DNA of 64,000 nucleotides from Fluviispira multicolorata (GTDB taxonomy: Bacteria > Bdellovibrionota_B > Oligoflexia > Silvanigrellales > Silvanigrellaceae), in the NCBI RefSeq assembly GCF_009208585.1, contig NZ_WFLN01000010.1:62001-126000 (forward strand). Direction: 5' to 3'. Below are positions 48,644 to 52,914 of the stretch, in pieces. Positions within the stretch are counted from its first letter, which is position 1, and each line of letters opens with the position of its first letter. The translations under genes were made by a program, and so were the position numbers. Below the pieces are notes generated by a model, which was not told the origin of the DNA, did not search any database, and worked only from the letters and a program-made list of their open reading frames with translations.

Positions 48644-48650
48644 TTATTAT

Positions 48651-50045
48651 TTATAGAAGACTTTTATTGTAAGAAGGAGACATCACGAAATTTAGAAACC
48701 TTCCAGTACCAGAAATATATTCATAGTTATGCGTAAGTTCAGCGGGAATAAAAACAGATGCTGGACTTTTAATTATTTTAGTTTCATTTCCTAATGTTAC
48801 TTTAACGTTAAGACCAGATCCATCAACATTATTACCCATAAAAACAAAAATGCTATCACAATTATGTGCATGCGTATCGACATGAGGTTCATAACTTCCT
48901 ACATAATCTTCGTGAAAAAGACGTTCAATAATATAAACGGGCGACCTCTCATCCACTCTTGAATCAATATGAACCCAACGATCCCCAACTCCATGTCTAT
49001 GGTATTTCAGCTCAGCAGCTGATTTAACAAACGGATTTCCGACTTTAAATTCATTTGAAAATCTTAATTTACTTTCTCTCACGTATTCTTGCGGCAATAG
49101 TTTTCTTTCATATCCAAATAGCTCTGGAGATAAAAATTCATAAGCCTTATAATTTTTTGAATTTGCTTTTGCATGATATTTTGATGAATGAATAAATGCA
49201 TTTTTACCTACAATGGGTCTATGAGGCTCGGGAATAAAAGTAGATATTCGAGCAACTATATCTTTTAAATATTTAGTTTCTTTAAAGTTAAAACTTACAT
49301 CATCATAAAAATAAGCAAGAGAAGCACTCATTTGAAAGAGATCACAAATTCCTGCTCTTTCACCAATTCCAAGTACGCTCACATCAATAATAGAAGCACC
49401 TGCTTCAATAGCAGAATGTGCATTTGCTAAAGCAAGTCCAAAATCATTATGCAAGTGCACTTCAATTTCACAGTTGAAATTTTTTACTGCGAATTTGACC
49501 ATTTGATAACATTTCTGAGGATTCCAAGCACCCACGGTATCTGCCAAACTCAAACGATCCACACCAGCTTGATTAGTTATTTGTGCTATTTCTTCAATTA
49601 TTTCAAAAGATGTCCTAGAGGCATCTTCAATAGTAAACCTAACTTTTAAACCTAACTCTTTTGCAAATAAAATTGAAGATAAAACCTGTTCCTTTACCCA
49701 CTCTTTTGACTTATTTGTAAATTTAGTTTCTAAAGAAATAGGATTAAATGAAGCCCAAATTCCCACCCAGTTTGCACCTGTATTATGGGCGGATAAAATT
49801 TCTGTTTTACAAGCCCGTGCATGCACTAAAGTTTCCATATTTTTAATTTGCTCACAAACCTTTTTACAAACTTCTTCCTCTAATTGTGAAATACCTGGAT
49901 GTCCTACTTCAATTATATCAACACCAAAACTTTCTAGGTGCTTTGCAATTTCAATTTTTTCTTCAAGTGAAAAACAAACTCCTGAAGACTGTTCCCCTTC
50001 ACGAAGAGTTGAATCGAGTAATTTTATTTTAGTAAGATGCGCCAT
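48651..50045 (-). CDS. HMGL-family (homocitrate/isopropylmalate synthase-like) enzyme fused to a cupin domain
   Basis: The N-terminal 290 residues are a TIM-barrel acyl-CoA condensing enzyme: LLDSTLREGEQSSG near residue 9, EVHLHNDFGLALANAHS (His197, His199) near 195 and GIGERAGICDL near 227. Residues from about 350 to the end are an extra beta-rich part with HVDTHAH (His388, 392, 394) and AELTHNY (His439), a cupin metal-ligand pattern. Normal homocitrate or isopropylmalate synthases do not have this domain. It is the last gene of a four-gene operon, overlapping the hydrolase gene by 17 bases. Likely reaction: acetyl-CoA plus a 2-keto acid, then cupin chemistry; inferred. Confidence 0.85.
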   Translation of the reverse strand: MAHLTKIKLLDSTLREGEQSSGVCFSLEEKIEIAKHLESFGVDIIEVGHPGISQLEEEVCKKVCEQIKNMETLVHARACKTEILSAHNTGANWVGIWASFNPISLETKFTNKSKEWVKEQVLSSILFAKELGLKVRFTIEDASRTSFEIIEEIAQITNQAGVDRLSLADTVGAWNPQKCYQMVKFAVKNFNCEIEVHLHNDFGLALANAHSAIEAGASIIDVSVLGIGERAGICDLFQMSASLAYFYDDVSFNFKETKYLKDIVARISTFIPEPHRPIVGKNAFIHSSKYHAKANSKNYKAYEFLSPELFGYERKLLPQEYVRESKLRFSNEFKVGNPFVKSAAELKYHRHGVGDRWVHIDSRVDERSPVYIIERLFHEDYVGSYEPHVDTHAHNCDSIFVFMGNNVDGSGLNVKVTLGNETKIIKSPASVFIPAELTHNYEYISGTGRFLNFVMSPSYNKSLL

Positions 50046-51069
50046 AATTTTCCTTTTTATTTAGAAATGAAATGATTTCATCAATATAAACTTTTCGATT
50101 ATCTTCATAGATAATCCAATGTGTCGCATTTTTAATAACTATTTCTTTTTTACTTTTAACTCCAGTGAGTTTTTTAAATAATTCTTTATCTGCAAAAATA
50201 TCCTGATCGCCATTTATGACTAAAGTAGGTTGAGAGATTTTTGTAATGTCATAAACAGGGTGATTGGTCCAAATCTGAAAAAGATCTTTCATAGGCCCCA
50301 TCGGTCTTCTTAAAGAACCATGAATTTTAGAGCCACTATCTAAATTTTTATATACTTTTTCAACTGCAAGTAATGAATATTTTGAAACTAAATTTTTTTC
50401 TTGCATCATCATTTTCCAATGTGAATAAATTGCTTCCCATGGGACAATTTGATATGCAGATAAATTATTATTAAATTGATTTTCTTTATCTGCAAATGGC
50501 TTAGTAAACAGAGGTAAGTTAAATGAGTGCATTGCCCCAGTCAAAACTAATTTATTAATTTTTGACTGATTTAATGATGCATATTCCGCAGCAACAATAG
50601 AACCAAAAGACCAACCAATTAAAGAAATATCCTGCACTTTTTTCTGTGCATGAATGTAGTCTATAATAATATTTAATTGCTTTACAGCATCTGCACTCTG
50701 TAAAGGAAAAACCCCTGTTGGAGCTGGAAATATTTGCATTACTTTTGGATAGGTCGATTTTCCCATACCTTCAAAGTCAACACTAAAAACATCAAAACCT
50801 TTTTTTGCTAATTCATCCATGAAAGACAATGATGGAATATCATATGCTTCTCCAGAAGGTATACAAAGAGGAGGAAGTAAAATAACCACTCGCTCTTTTC
50901 TATTTTTCGCATTTCCTTTTTCTATGCTTTTTTCTTTTAAATACAAAGTATTATCTTTTCCATTTTTAATAAAATGGTCAAAAGTTTTAATAGTTTTAAT
51001 GTCAACTGAATATGCACTAAAGAGAATAAATATTTGTAGAAAAGCTAAAGTGTATTTAAAGTAACGCAT
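50029..51069 (-). CDS. Alpha/beta hydrolase with signal peptide
   Basis: The 346-residue protein starts with a hydrophobic leader (about residues 1-20), so it is probably periplasmic or lipid-facing. The nucleophile elbow IGWSFGSIVAAEYAS is near residue 155, the acid in VINGDQDIFADK near 285 and the His in NATHWIIYED near 316. It is an esterase/lipase-like hydrolase. It lies between the second ThiF gene (14-base overlap) and the HMGL-cupin gene (17-base overlap), so it is translated with them and may release or trim the product. Its export is a puzzle for a pathway whose other enzymes look cytoplasmic. Confidence 0.8.
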   Translation of the reverse strand: MRYFKYTLAFLQIFILFSAYSVDIKTIKTFDHFIKNGKDNTLYLKEKSIEKGNAKNRKERVVILLPPLCIPSGEAYDIPSLSFMDELAKKGFDVFSVDFEGMGKSTYPKVMQIFPAPTGVFPLQSADAVKQLNIIIDYIHAQKKVQDISLIGWSFGSIVAAEYASLNQSKINKLVLTGAMHSFNLPLFTKPFADKENQFNNNLSAYQIVPWEAIYSHWKMMMQEKNLVSKYSLLAVEKVYKNLDSGSKIHGSLRRPMGPMKDLFQIWTNHPVYDITKISQPTLVINGDQDIFADKELFKKLTGVKSKKEIVIKNATHWIIYEDNRKVYIDEIISFLNKKENYGASY

Positions 51070-51901
51070 TATCCCATGTTCCTTCCACTGGACTTTCTAC
51101 TTTTACCATATCTGATTTTGCTAAATCTATTTTTACTAATTTCGGAGCATATGTTGGTTGCAAGTTTTCTCTATTTAATATGTATTTTAAAACCTCAAAA
51201 CTAGCTAATAATCCAACAATATTTGCGACAGGACATAAAACAGTCCATGGCGCACTTTTTTCAACAAAAGAATTTGCCCAATCTTCTAAAGCACCAAACT
51301 GAACAGAATTTAATGCTCTTTCATTTTTAATTTTCATAATTTCATTTTTAACGTCTGGAGTCAGCTCCTTATTATATGAGCAGTGCCTTAATACAATTTC
51401 ATACGCTGGAGTTTCATGAGAAAAAGTCATAACCCCACCTCTAAAAGGAGGCGTTACAGCAATCCAGACAGAAGGAATTTGCATTTTTTGTGCTGCTCTA
51501 TGAATAATCACTCTTGTCACAAGATTATCTGTCGCATCGATGACAATCTCGCAATCTTTTAAAAGTTGTTGTGCATTATTTTCGTTAAACATTTCTAAAG
51601 AAACAGTGACATTAATATTTGGATTTATGTCCATGAGTGTTTCTTTAGCGCATTCAGCTTTATACTTTCCAATTCGAGAAACAGAGGATAACATTTGTCT
51701 GTTAATATTACTATATTCAAATTTATCCATATCAATAACATGAATATTTTTGAAACCCATACGTGCTAAAGAAACTAAAGCAATGCCACCGACACCCCCT
51801 GCACCAACAACTGTTACCTTTGAATTTGCAAGTTTTTGTTGTTCTTGCTCAGTAATTACTCCAATATTTCGCATAAAAATTGAATTTTCAATTGCTGTCA
51901 T
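51056..51901 (-). CDS. ThiF/MoeB/HesA-family E1-like adenylyltransferase (paralogue 2)
   Basis: ATG 51901, preceded by GAGG, is the better start, giving 281 residues. GAGGVGG at residues 33-39 is the ATP-binding loop, the Arg finger is Arg11 (MRNIGV), and SNINRQ and DATDN follow. The usual zinc CxxC pairs are absent. Such enzymes adenylate a carboxylate, often the C-terminus of a small protein. It follows the first ThiF gene by 26 bases and shares its unusual middle segment. No ubiquitin-like partner (ThiS/MoaD) is encoded nearby. Confidence 0.87.
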   Translation of the reverse strand: MTAIENSIFMRNIGVITEQEQQKLANSKVTVVGAGGVGGIALVSLARMGFKNIHVIDMDKFEYSNINRQMLSSVSRIGKYKAECAKETLMDINPNINVTVSLEMFNENNAQQLLKDCEIVIDATDNLVTRVIIHRAAQKMQIPSVWIAVTPPFRGGVMTFSHETPAYEIVLRHCSYNKELTPDVKNEIMKIKNERALNSVQFGALEDWANSFVEKSAPWTVLCPVANIVGLLASFEVLKYILNRENLQPTYAPKLVKIDLAKSDMVKVESPVEGTWDNALL

Positions 51902-51927
51902 GATCCACCCTCTAATTATAAGTTTTA

Positions 51928-52791
51928 TTAAATATGAGTTGCTTCCCAATAACCCTTATTTGGGGTTTGTACCGAAACAGGATTTTGTAAATTATCTAAA
52001 TCAATTAAGAGCCCTTTGGGCGCTAATGCCAATGGTGGTTTCCCAATTATAAGCTGAATCACTTCATGGCAGCTAAACGATGCTAAAAGAGAGGCTCGAA
52101 TGGGGGTGATAATCCATCCAACTTTTCCGGAGCAAAAATCGTCTGCCCACTCTTTGGGAGCTCCTTTTTCTACAGAGTAATTTGCTCTTTGTTTCTTTAA
52201 ATTCTGCACAAATTCATGGACGATAGGATCAGATATTTTTTTACCGTGAGTTGGAATATTTAAAGCTGTTTCGTAATCAATTCCATCAGGAACAAAAGTG
52301 GAAACAAACCCTCTATGCGGGGGACTACCTGACATAGATATGCTTGGTATTCCATATTTTTTAGCGGCTCTATGTACGACAATTCTTGAAGGCATATCAT
52401 CTAAAGCTTCGAGCACAACATCATGCCCTTTAATCAATTCATCTACATTTTCTTCTGTTACTTTTATATTTTGAAATGATGTCTTTAAATAGGGGTTAAT
52501 ATCTTTTAAGTACTTTTCAGTTGCATTGCTTTTAGATTCATTAATTGTGGAGCAAAATGCAAGCATTTGTCTGTTTATATTTGAAATTTCAAACGTATCT
52601 GGATCAACCCCACTCAAAGTTCCAATTCCTGCTCGCGCGCAAAGAATGGCTTCCATTCCTCCCACACCACCAAGTCCGAAAATAATGACTTTGCTCTTTG
52701 CAAGCATTTCTTGCTCTTTATGGGTATAGACTCCAATATTTTTTTTGGTCATTTCTGAATAAAAATCATTTTCCGATAAATTAAAAATCAT
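51928..52791 (-). CDS. ThiF/MoeB/HesA-family E1-like adenylyltransferase (paralogue 1)
   Basis: The 287-residue protein has GLGGVGG (residues 39-45), PDTFEISNINRQ near 68 and a DD acidic pair in LEALDDMPSR. At the position of the Arg finger it has Lys (TKKNIGV), which may weaken adenylation. The middle part (EFVQNLKKQRANYS ... EWADDF) aligns with paralogue 2. It is the first gene of the operon, with GGGAGG just before its ATG. Two such E1-like enzymes in tandem suggest a heterodimer, as in eukaryotic E1 complexes, or successive activation steps; both are inference. Confidence 0.87.
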   Translation of the reverse strand: MIFNLSENDFYSEMTKKNIGVYTHKEQEMLAKSKVIIFGLGGVGGMEAILCARAGIGTLSGVDPDTFEISNINRQMLAFCSTINESKSNATEKYLKDINPYLKTSFQNIKVTEENVDELIKGHDVVLEALDDMPSRIVVHRAAKKYGIPSISMSGSPPHRGFVSTFVPDGIDYETALNIPTHGKKISDPIVHEFVQNLKKQRANYSVEKGAPKEWADDFCSGKVGWIITPIRASLLASFSCHEVIQLIIGKPPLALAPKGLLIDLDNLQNPVSVQTPNKGYWEATHI

Positions 52792-52805
52792 CTTACCTCC
52801 CTTTT

Positions 52806-52817
52806 ATGCAGTTGCAT
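52806..52817. promoter_or_regulatory. Small palindrome upstream of the ThiF operon
   Basis: ATGCA-GT-TGCAT, a near-perfect palindrome, lies 15 bases upstream of the first ThiF start codon and downstream of the -10 box at 52822-52827. Two imperfect direct repeats, 52828-52844 (TTGCAATAGCTTAACTC on the minus strand) and 52851-52864 (TTGCAGCTAAGCTC), lie further upstream. It could be an operator, but the evidence is thin. Confidence 0.3.
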
Positions 52818-52821
52818 ACAT

Positions 52822-52850
52822 AAAATAGAGTTAAGCTATTGCAAACACAA
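52822..52850 (-). promoter_or_regulatory. Putative promoter of the ThiF/HMGL-cupin operon
   Basis: On the minus strand TTGTGT (52850-52845), a 17-base spacer and TATTTT (52827-52822). The spacing is right but both boxes are partial. The spacer itself overlaps one of the direct repeats (52828-52844), which would suit a repressor site. Confidence 0.35.
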
Positions 52851-52914
52851 GAGCTTAGCTGCAACAAAATGTTTCAGGAGTTGTTACTTTTTTTGATTAT
52901 AACGCAAATAAAAT

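Follow-up and report, generated by a model that had tools for sequence, protein, structure and literature searches.

Cystargolide and belactosin are made by pathways that combine an HMGL-type synthase, an ATP-dependent carboxylate adenylation and a hydrolase; a malate derivative is methylated, CysF adenylates and lactonizes it, and the hydrolase CysE removes the methyl group (PMC11427300). In a window of 64,000 nucleotides from Fluviispira multicolorata (NCBI RefSeq assembly GCF_009208585.1, contig NZ_WFLN01000010.1, positions 62,001 to 126,000 of the forward strand), we analyzed an operon of four genes encoding two E1-like adenylyltransferases (ThiFA and ThiFB), an alpha/beta hydrolase and a fusion of an HMGL domain with a cupin (HMGL-cupin). 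The operon shares the HMGL synthase and the hydrolase with the pathways above, but lacks a CysG-type methyltransferase and a CysF-type ANL ligase; moreover, its hydrolase is predicted to be exported and a cupin is fused to its synthase. On balance, we favor the reading that the four genes constitute a horizontally moving, minimal pathway for a specialized metabolite, in which a hydroxy-polycarboxylate would be made, isomerized, adenylated and cyclized or coupled, and after export would be a substrate of the hydrolase. An initial annotation of this DNA had recognized no characterized pathway with such a combination, and our literature search likewise found none; surveys of the E1 superfamily were incompletely covered, and an earlier mention is possible there. 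Literature on HMGL proteins or isopropylmalate synthases together with ThiF yielded nothing useful.

The four open reading frames (ORFs) all lie on the minus strand, from 52791 to 48651, in the order ThiFA, ThiFB, hydrolase and HMGL-cupin. Their junctions of +26, -14 and -17 bases agree with the gap and the two overlaps reported in the initial annotation. ThiFA (51928-52791) encodes a protein of 287 amino acids matching the Pfam ThiF family (E=7.4e-37). The second E1-like protein, ThiFB (51056-51901), comprises 281 amino acids when read from ATG, while an alternative TTG start at 51949 gives a product of 297 amino acids, 16 residues longer, and this version matches Pfam ThiF with E=4.5e-53. 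The alpha/beta hydrolase (50029-51069, 346 amino acids) matches Abhydrolase_1 (E=4.8e-21) and carries a predicted signal peptide, and the HMGL-cupin fusion (48651-50045, 464 amino acids) matches HMGL-like (1.4e-64) together with HCS_D2. The 123 bases between ThiFA and the upstream gene (52792-52914, read on the minus strand) are the presumed promoter region of the operon. This leader holds a Shine-Dalgarno-like AGGGAGG and a TATAAT hexamer; a consensus scan of the region for sigma-70-type promoters performed no better than on shuffled sequences (20 found vs 18 expected).

Relatives of the operon were located by a genome-wide scan with an alignment of the cupin domain, followed by blastp; a scan with the full-length HMGL-cupin retrieved none. 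The search for HMGL-cupin fusions alongside paired ThiF genes, which had been suggested in the initial annotation, found homologues of all four co-occurring in other phyla with their order unchanged; the lack of co-occurrence that would have spoken against the initial interpretation was thus not seen. The identical order was observed in five metagenome-assembled genomes (MAGs) of Neisseriaceae/Pseudomonadota (loci L019-L023) and in two Oscillatoria (L024 and L025); in the latter, an additional gene for a DUF441 membrane protein separates ThiFB from the hydrolase. In a Paenibacillaceae MAG, ThiFA, ThiFB and DUF441 are found on one contig and HMGL-cupin on a different one. Within the genus, one of seven other genomes carries the same four genes at exactly this site. 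Since the arrangement recurs across phyla, it is not due to chance. An EamA gene lies directly downstream of the operon at two Neisseriaceae loci, and MFS genes are found near L020 and L022. The absence of an adjacent transporter pointed out earlier is thus true of the window copy but not of its relatives, where EamA, MFS or DUF441 membrane genes stand beside or inside the operon. In one Neisseriaceae MAG (L022:5407-5958), a gene judged by eye to be rhodanese-like lies on the other strand, upstream of the ThiF operon; it was not noticed at the other loci.

Altogether, the module spans the phylum of the window and betaproteobacterial, cyanobacterial and Bacillota genomes, with identities of 46-76% and a sporadic occurrence, which points to horizontal transfer. 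In the window's phylum, ThiFA occurs in 2 of 58 genomes; the counts are 6 of 23 for the family of genome G059, 1 of 11 for the family of genome G063 and 2 of 196 for a cyanobacterial order. Searches of plasmids gave no close relative of ThiFA, and searches of phages gave no match to the cupin domain. When 52 genomes were searched for both ThiFA and HMGL-cupin, both were present in 11, ThiFA alone in one, where a contig end cuts the locus, and HMGL-cupin alone in none. With the genomes reached through the query left out, the co-occurrence is significant in the remaining 43 (Fisher p=0.003, counting related genomes as independent). The pairwise distance matrices of ThiFA, ThiFB and HMGL-cupin agree closely (r=0.956-0.968), a correlation reached in 0 of 5000 Mantel permutations.

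In the window, the operon sits between mrp and a response-regulator gene. Congeners without the operon have either nothing or unrelated ORFs at this position, and insertion of a cassette next to mrp is therefore the simplest reading; in the congener with the empty site (L067), only about 20 bases separate mrp from the next gene. The interval as a whole (48644-52914 in the window; L066, L067 and L069) is a variable site, which depending on the congener is empty or contains the operon, two small ORFs or one protein of 271 amino acids that probably has a signal peptide. A functional link between the operon and mrp was rejected, as mrp keeps its place in congeners lacking the operon. The genes flanking the operon vary from lineage to lineage, and these differing flanks, the agreeing distance matrices and the empty site show that the four genes move as one unit. 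The cassette, intact in a few bacteria of at least three phyla, has probably been passed between them.

Residues 1-315 of HMGL-cupin form a DRE-TIM Claisen-condensing domain according to a structure model and Foldseek. The residues of its active site (H75, R77, R136, E195, H197, H199 and H291) are homocitrate synthase-like, and the metal ligands D11, H197 and H199 are invariant, as is H291, located beyond the domain. At H75, R136 and E195, the protein agrees with solved homocitrate synthases and not with the aligned LeuA-type proteins; each of the 11 HMGL-cupins in the residue table has H75 and R136, as do three solved homocitrate synthases, and the aligned LeuA-type proteins lack both. In Thermus homocitrate synthase, Arg133/His72-type residues bind 2-oxoglutarate. 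R136 corresponds to Arg133 of this enzyme, which we take to be the ligand of the 2-oxoglutarate carboxylate, and a dicarboxylic 2-oxo acid is therefore the first-guess substrate.

Compared with the homocitrate synthases LysS, Lys20 and NifV (PDB 6ktq, 3ivs and 2ztj), HMGL-cupin has in common the HMGL fold, the HxH metal ligands, Arg136, His75, Glu195 and a catalytic region following the HMGL domain. In contrast to these enzymes, it carries a cupin domain, has other residues at positions 95 and 101, forms its own clade and is found outside any lysine or nif context. It scores below the homocitrate synthase cut-offs (296 vs 413.55 bits for TIGR02146 and 267 vs 462.9 bits for TIGR02660) as well as below that for isopropylmalate synthase (293 vs 517 bits), and no leuBCD genes lie beside it. 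Phylogenetically, the HMGL-cupins group in a single clade (100% support) outside the sampled homocitrate and isopropylmalate synthases. The match to an ordinary leucine- or lysine-pathway enzyme, which the initial annotation had named as evidence against its interpretation, was thus not found, and such an identity is ruled out by the cut-offs, the residues and the tree. HMGL matches from Pantoea belong to a phosphonate cluster with phosphoenolpyruvate mutase and are distant relatives only.

The last 127 residues of the protein are unrecognized by Pfam in the window copy, while one family member matches Cupin_2 (E=4e-4). Modeled on its own, this region (residues 338-464) gave an AlphaFold2 beta sandwich with a pLDDT of 86.6, for which Foldseek returned many cupins; the full-length Foldseek search listed barrel matches only. 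The fusion of HMGL and cupin proposed from the initial reading of the gene is thus supported by structure prediction. Putative metal ligands are found among H388, H392, H394, D397 and H439, and the family alignment of the domain shows invariant His and Asp residues. Profile searches of the PDB gave MarH as the best match (E=0.0026), followed by a related non-heme iron epimerase/lyase (E=0.0065), and both are also among the Foldseek matches. MarH and its homologue StnK3 epimerize the beta-carbon of beta-methyl-indolepyruvate, a 2-oxo acid (PMC4742848), and for this reason we propose that the cupin may enolize or isomerize the acid. The cupin domain and these epimerases have similar metal-ligand and IPAG..H motifs, but the similarity is weak, and MarH and StnK3 are stand-alone proteins acting on beta-methyl-indolepyruvate.

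Both E1-like proteins have kept the adenylation motifs GxGGxGG, NINRQ, Lys and Asp: GLGGVGG at 39-45, NINRQ at 71-75, Lys87 and Asp131/132 in ThiFA, and GAGGVGG at 33-39, NINRQ at 65-69, Lys81 and Asp122/125 in ThiFB. The two are 36% identical over their full length. For each, nine orthologues were aligned, with identities to the window copy of 57-88% for ThiFA and 59-80% for ThiFB. Cys220 of ThiFA is invariant in the nine aligned orthologues, ThiFB has no invariant Cys, and neither protein has a CxxC motif. The ATP motif, NxNRQ and the adenylation Lys and Asp are thus shared with the adenylyltransferases ThiF, MoeB, HesA, MccB and PaaA. Unlike these, the cassette enzymes always occur as a tandem pair and lack both the CxxC zinc motif and a nearby ubiquitin-like or peptide partner. 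The sulfur-carrier features of ThiF/MoeB are accordingly missing from the operon, where neither the zinc motif nor a ubiquitin-like partner ORF was found, and ThiFB falls below the NCBIfam TIGR02356 cut-off (136.6 vs 275.25 bits).

At the N-terminus of the hydrolase, a hydrophobic signal peptide was identified by eye; in the cyanobacterial homologues it is of the lipoprotein type. A putative catalytic triad of Ser154 (in GWSFG), Asp288/290 and His317 is kept in the alignment of eight orthologues, one of which, at L019, ends early. The hydrolase is the part of the cassette that is least well explained, and may serve in maturation, self-protection or scavenging.

The HMGL-cupin clade divides by genomic context: one branch is ThiF-linked (98%), and the other, which includes PA1217 of Pseudomonas aeruginosa, is associated with nonribosomal peptide synthetase (NRPS), AMP-ligase and asparagine synthetase genes (97%). 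In the clusters of the latter branch (P. aeruginosa PA1211-PA1221, Xenorhabdus and Streptomyces), full-length HMGL-cupins with identities of 38-42% occur near carboxylate-activating enzymes and hydrolases, but with a set of NRPS adenylation-thiolation (A-T), AMP-ligase, AsnB, methyltransferase and dioxygenase proteins in place of the ThiF pair. PA1217, in a plasmid copy, and its Xenorhabdus homologue adjoin an A-T NRPS protein, a thioesterase-like hydrolase, PhyH, a methyltransferase and an AMP-ligase, and the Xenorhabdus locus also has asparagine synthetase-like and TauD proteins; some of these assignments were made by gene position and by eye. ThiFA was absent from all four tested genomes with clusters of this branch. 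That no peptide synthetase adjoins the operon, as the initial annotation remarked, does not extend to the sister clade, where HMGL-cupins adjoin peptide synthetase genes. A 2024 paper gave the product of PA1221 as unknown (PMC11253843).

Further features were observed among these relatives. The plasmid copy (p2014S05-249-1, L014:10445-17462) is a PA1211-PA1221-type cluster with a full-length HMGL-cupin of the PA1217 type, functions that recall beta-lactone assembly, a short AMP-binding gene and Mu-like phage genes close behind. In Streptomyces (L029:12960-15653), HMGL-cupin is found with an aconitase-family protein nearby, as though an alkylmalate product were isomerized. A Cereibacter sphaeroides plasmid (L016:2769-10326) encodes an HMGL protein without cupin that falls inside the NRPS/AsnB-linked branch, in a cluster with a radical SAM protein, a methyltransferase, a pyridoxal phosphate enzyme and an asparagine synthase-like protein between insertion sequence elements; a split cupin in this cluster was rejected.

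Because the sister branch carries NRPS A-T, AMP-ligase and asparagine synthetase-like genes, the combination of HMGL-cupin, adenylation and hydrolase recurs with unrelated adenylating enzymes. By analogy, this suggests that the HMGL-cupin product undergoes ATP-dependent carboxylate activation by two unrelated types of adenylating enzyme, and the pairing of HMGL-cupin with other adenylating enzymes in the sister clusters is our main argument that ThiFA and ThiFB would act on its product. In the proposed pathway, the HMGL domain, judged by its active-site residues, would condense a 2-oxo acid with acetyl-CoA or a similar acyl-CoA to a hydroxy-polycarboxylate resembling homocitrate or citrate; the 2-oxo acid is most likely dicarboxylic, for example 2-oxoglutarate or oxaloacetate. 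Given its weak homology to MarH-type enzymes, the cupin could use a metal to enolize, epimerize or isomerize the 2-oxo acid or the condensation product. ThiFA and ThiFB, probably as a heteromer with the single invariant Cys of ThiFA, would adenylate a carboxylate of the product, which might then close on an internal nucleophile to a lactone or anhydride, or couple to an amine. The product would leave the cytoplasm, for which the EamA, MFS or DUF441 proteins of other lineages are candidates, and be matured or inactivated by the exported hydrolase beyond the inner membrane. The sequence of events proposed initially, in which an acid is made, modified and activated at its carboxylate, is still the most economical reading; as to the nature of the acid, the hydroxy-dicarboxylate named there is, judging by the HMGL residues, no more likely than a hydroxy-tricarboxylate formed from a 2-oxo-dicarboxylate.

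Several points speak against this pathway. Its chemistry is read from the genes, and translational coupling of the four genes is deduced from the spacing of their junctions. ThiF enzymes act mostly on protein C-termini, so that a protein substrate could be encoded elsewhere. The sequence similarity of the cupin to MarH is marginal (E=0.0026), the window copy has no adjoining transporter and the Paenibacillaceae version no adjacent hydrolase. An exported hydrolase is also unusual for a biosynthetic step, and may instead serve in detoxification or substrate capture. More tentatively, the E1-like pair could act on a free small carboxylic acid, and not on a protein, in place of NRPS or ANL ligases, giving a cyclized homocitrate-like metabolite, for example a lactone, which would be exported and then processed by the hydrolase of the cassette. 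The cassette would then represent an unrecognized, minimal class of biosynthetic gene cluster, a possibility to which we assign less than even chances.

Among the other explanations, an unlikely one that nevertheless fits part of the gene content is a beta-lactone or other strained-lactone warhead, with HMGL-cupin producing an alkylmalate-like acid, the E1 pair taking the role of the CysF/BelH lactone synthetase and the hydrolase that of CysE or of self-protection. The sister HMGL-cupins do cluster with AMP-ligase, methyltransferase and hydrolase genes, with functions as in cystargolide assembly, and the antiSMASH rule for such clusters consists of an AMP-ligase and a 2-isopropylmalate synthase (PMC8719888). 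However, the cassette has neither an O-methyltransferase nor an ANL ligase, its HMGL site is of the homocitrate type and not of the LeuA type, and no E1-type beta-lactone synthetase was found in the literature searched. More doubtful is a modification of protein or peptide, in which a ribosomal peptide or carrier protein would be activated at its C-terminus by the E1 pair and receive a small acid supplied by HMGL-cupin. ThiF-like enzymes act in several pathways for ribosomally synthesized and post-translationally modified peptides (PMC12250964), and the invariant Cys220 of ThiFA would be in keeping with such a role; however, in the 1200 bases flanking the operon on each side, distant lineages have no short ORF in common, and no ubiquitin-like or precursor gene was seen inside the operon in the lineages examined. 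Improbable, too, is a siderophore or metallophore of the organic-acid type, in which the E1 pair would join a chelator based on homocitrate or citrate, and its hydrolysis in the periplasm after export would free the metal. The homocitrate-type synthase residues, the predicted export of the hydrolase and the exporter-type genes of relatives would suit such a compound, but the operon lacks an NRPS-independent siderophore (NIS) synthetase, no iron-uptake gene was recognized beside it in the window, and the sister clusters are not siderophore-like. A nif-like supply of homocitrate to a metallocofactor, modeled on the adjoining hesA and nifV of the minimal Paenibacillus nif operon (PMC3798268), was rejected as highly improbable because a nitrogenase-type protein (PF00148) is lacking in seven of ten operon-bearing genomes tested, including that of the window, and the adjacent mrp is also present in congeners without the operon.

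The minimal metabolite pathway that we favor would be encoded by a compact gene set found across phyla, which standard cluster rules are expected to overlook, since it contains no NRPS, polyketide synthase or precursor peptide and its cupin is missed by Pfam in the window copy. By descent, the cassette is tied to the HMGL-cupin of P. aeruginosa PA1211-PA1221, so that an answer for either system should help to explain the other. If the E1 pair does work on a small acid, chemistry of the ubiquitin-activation type would be extended to free metabolites.

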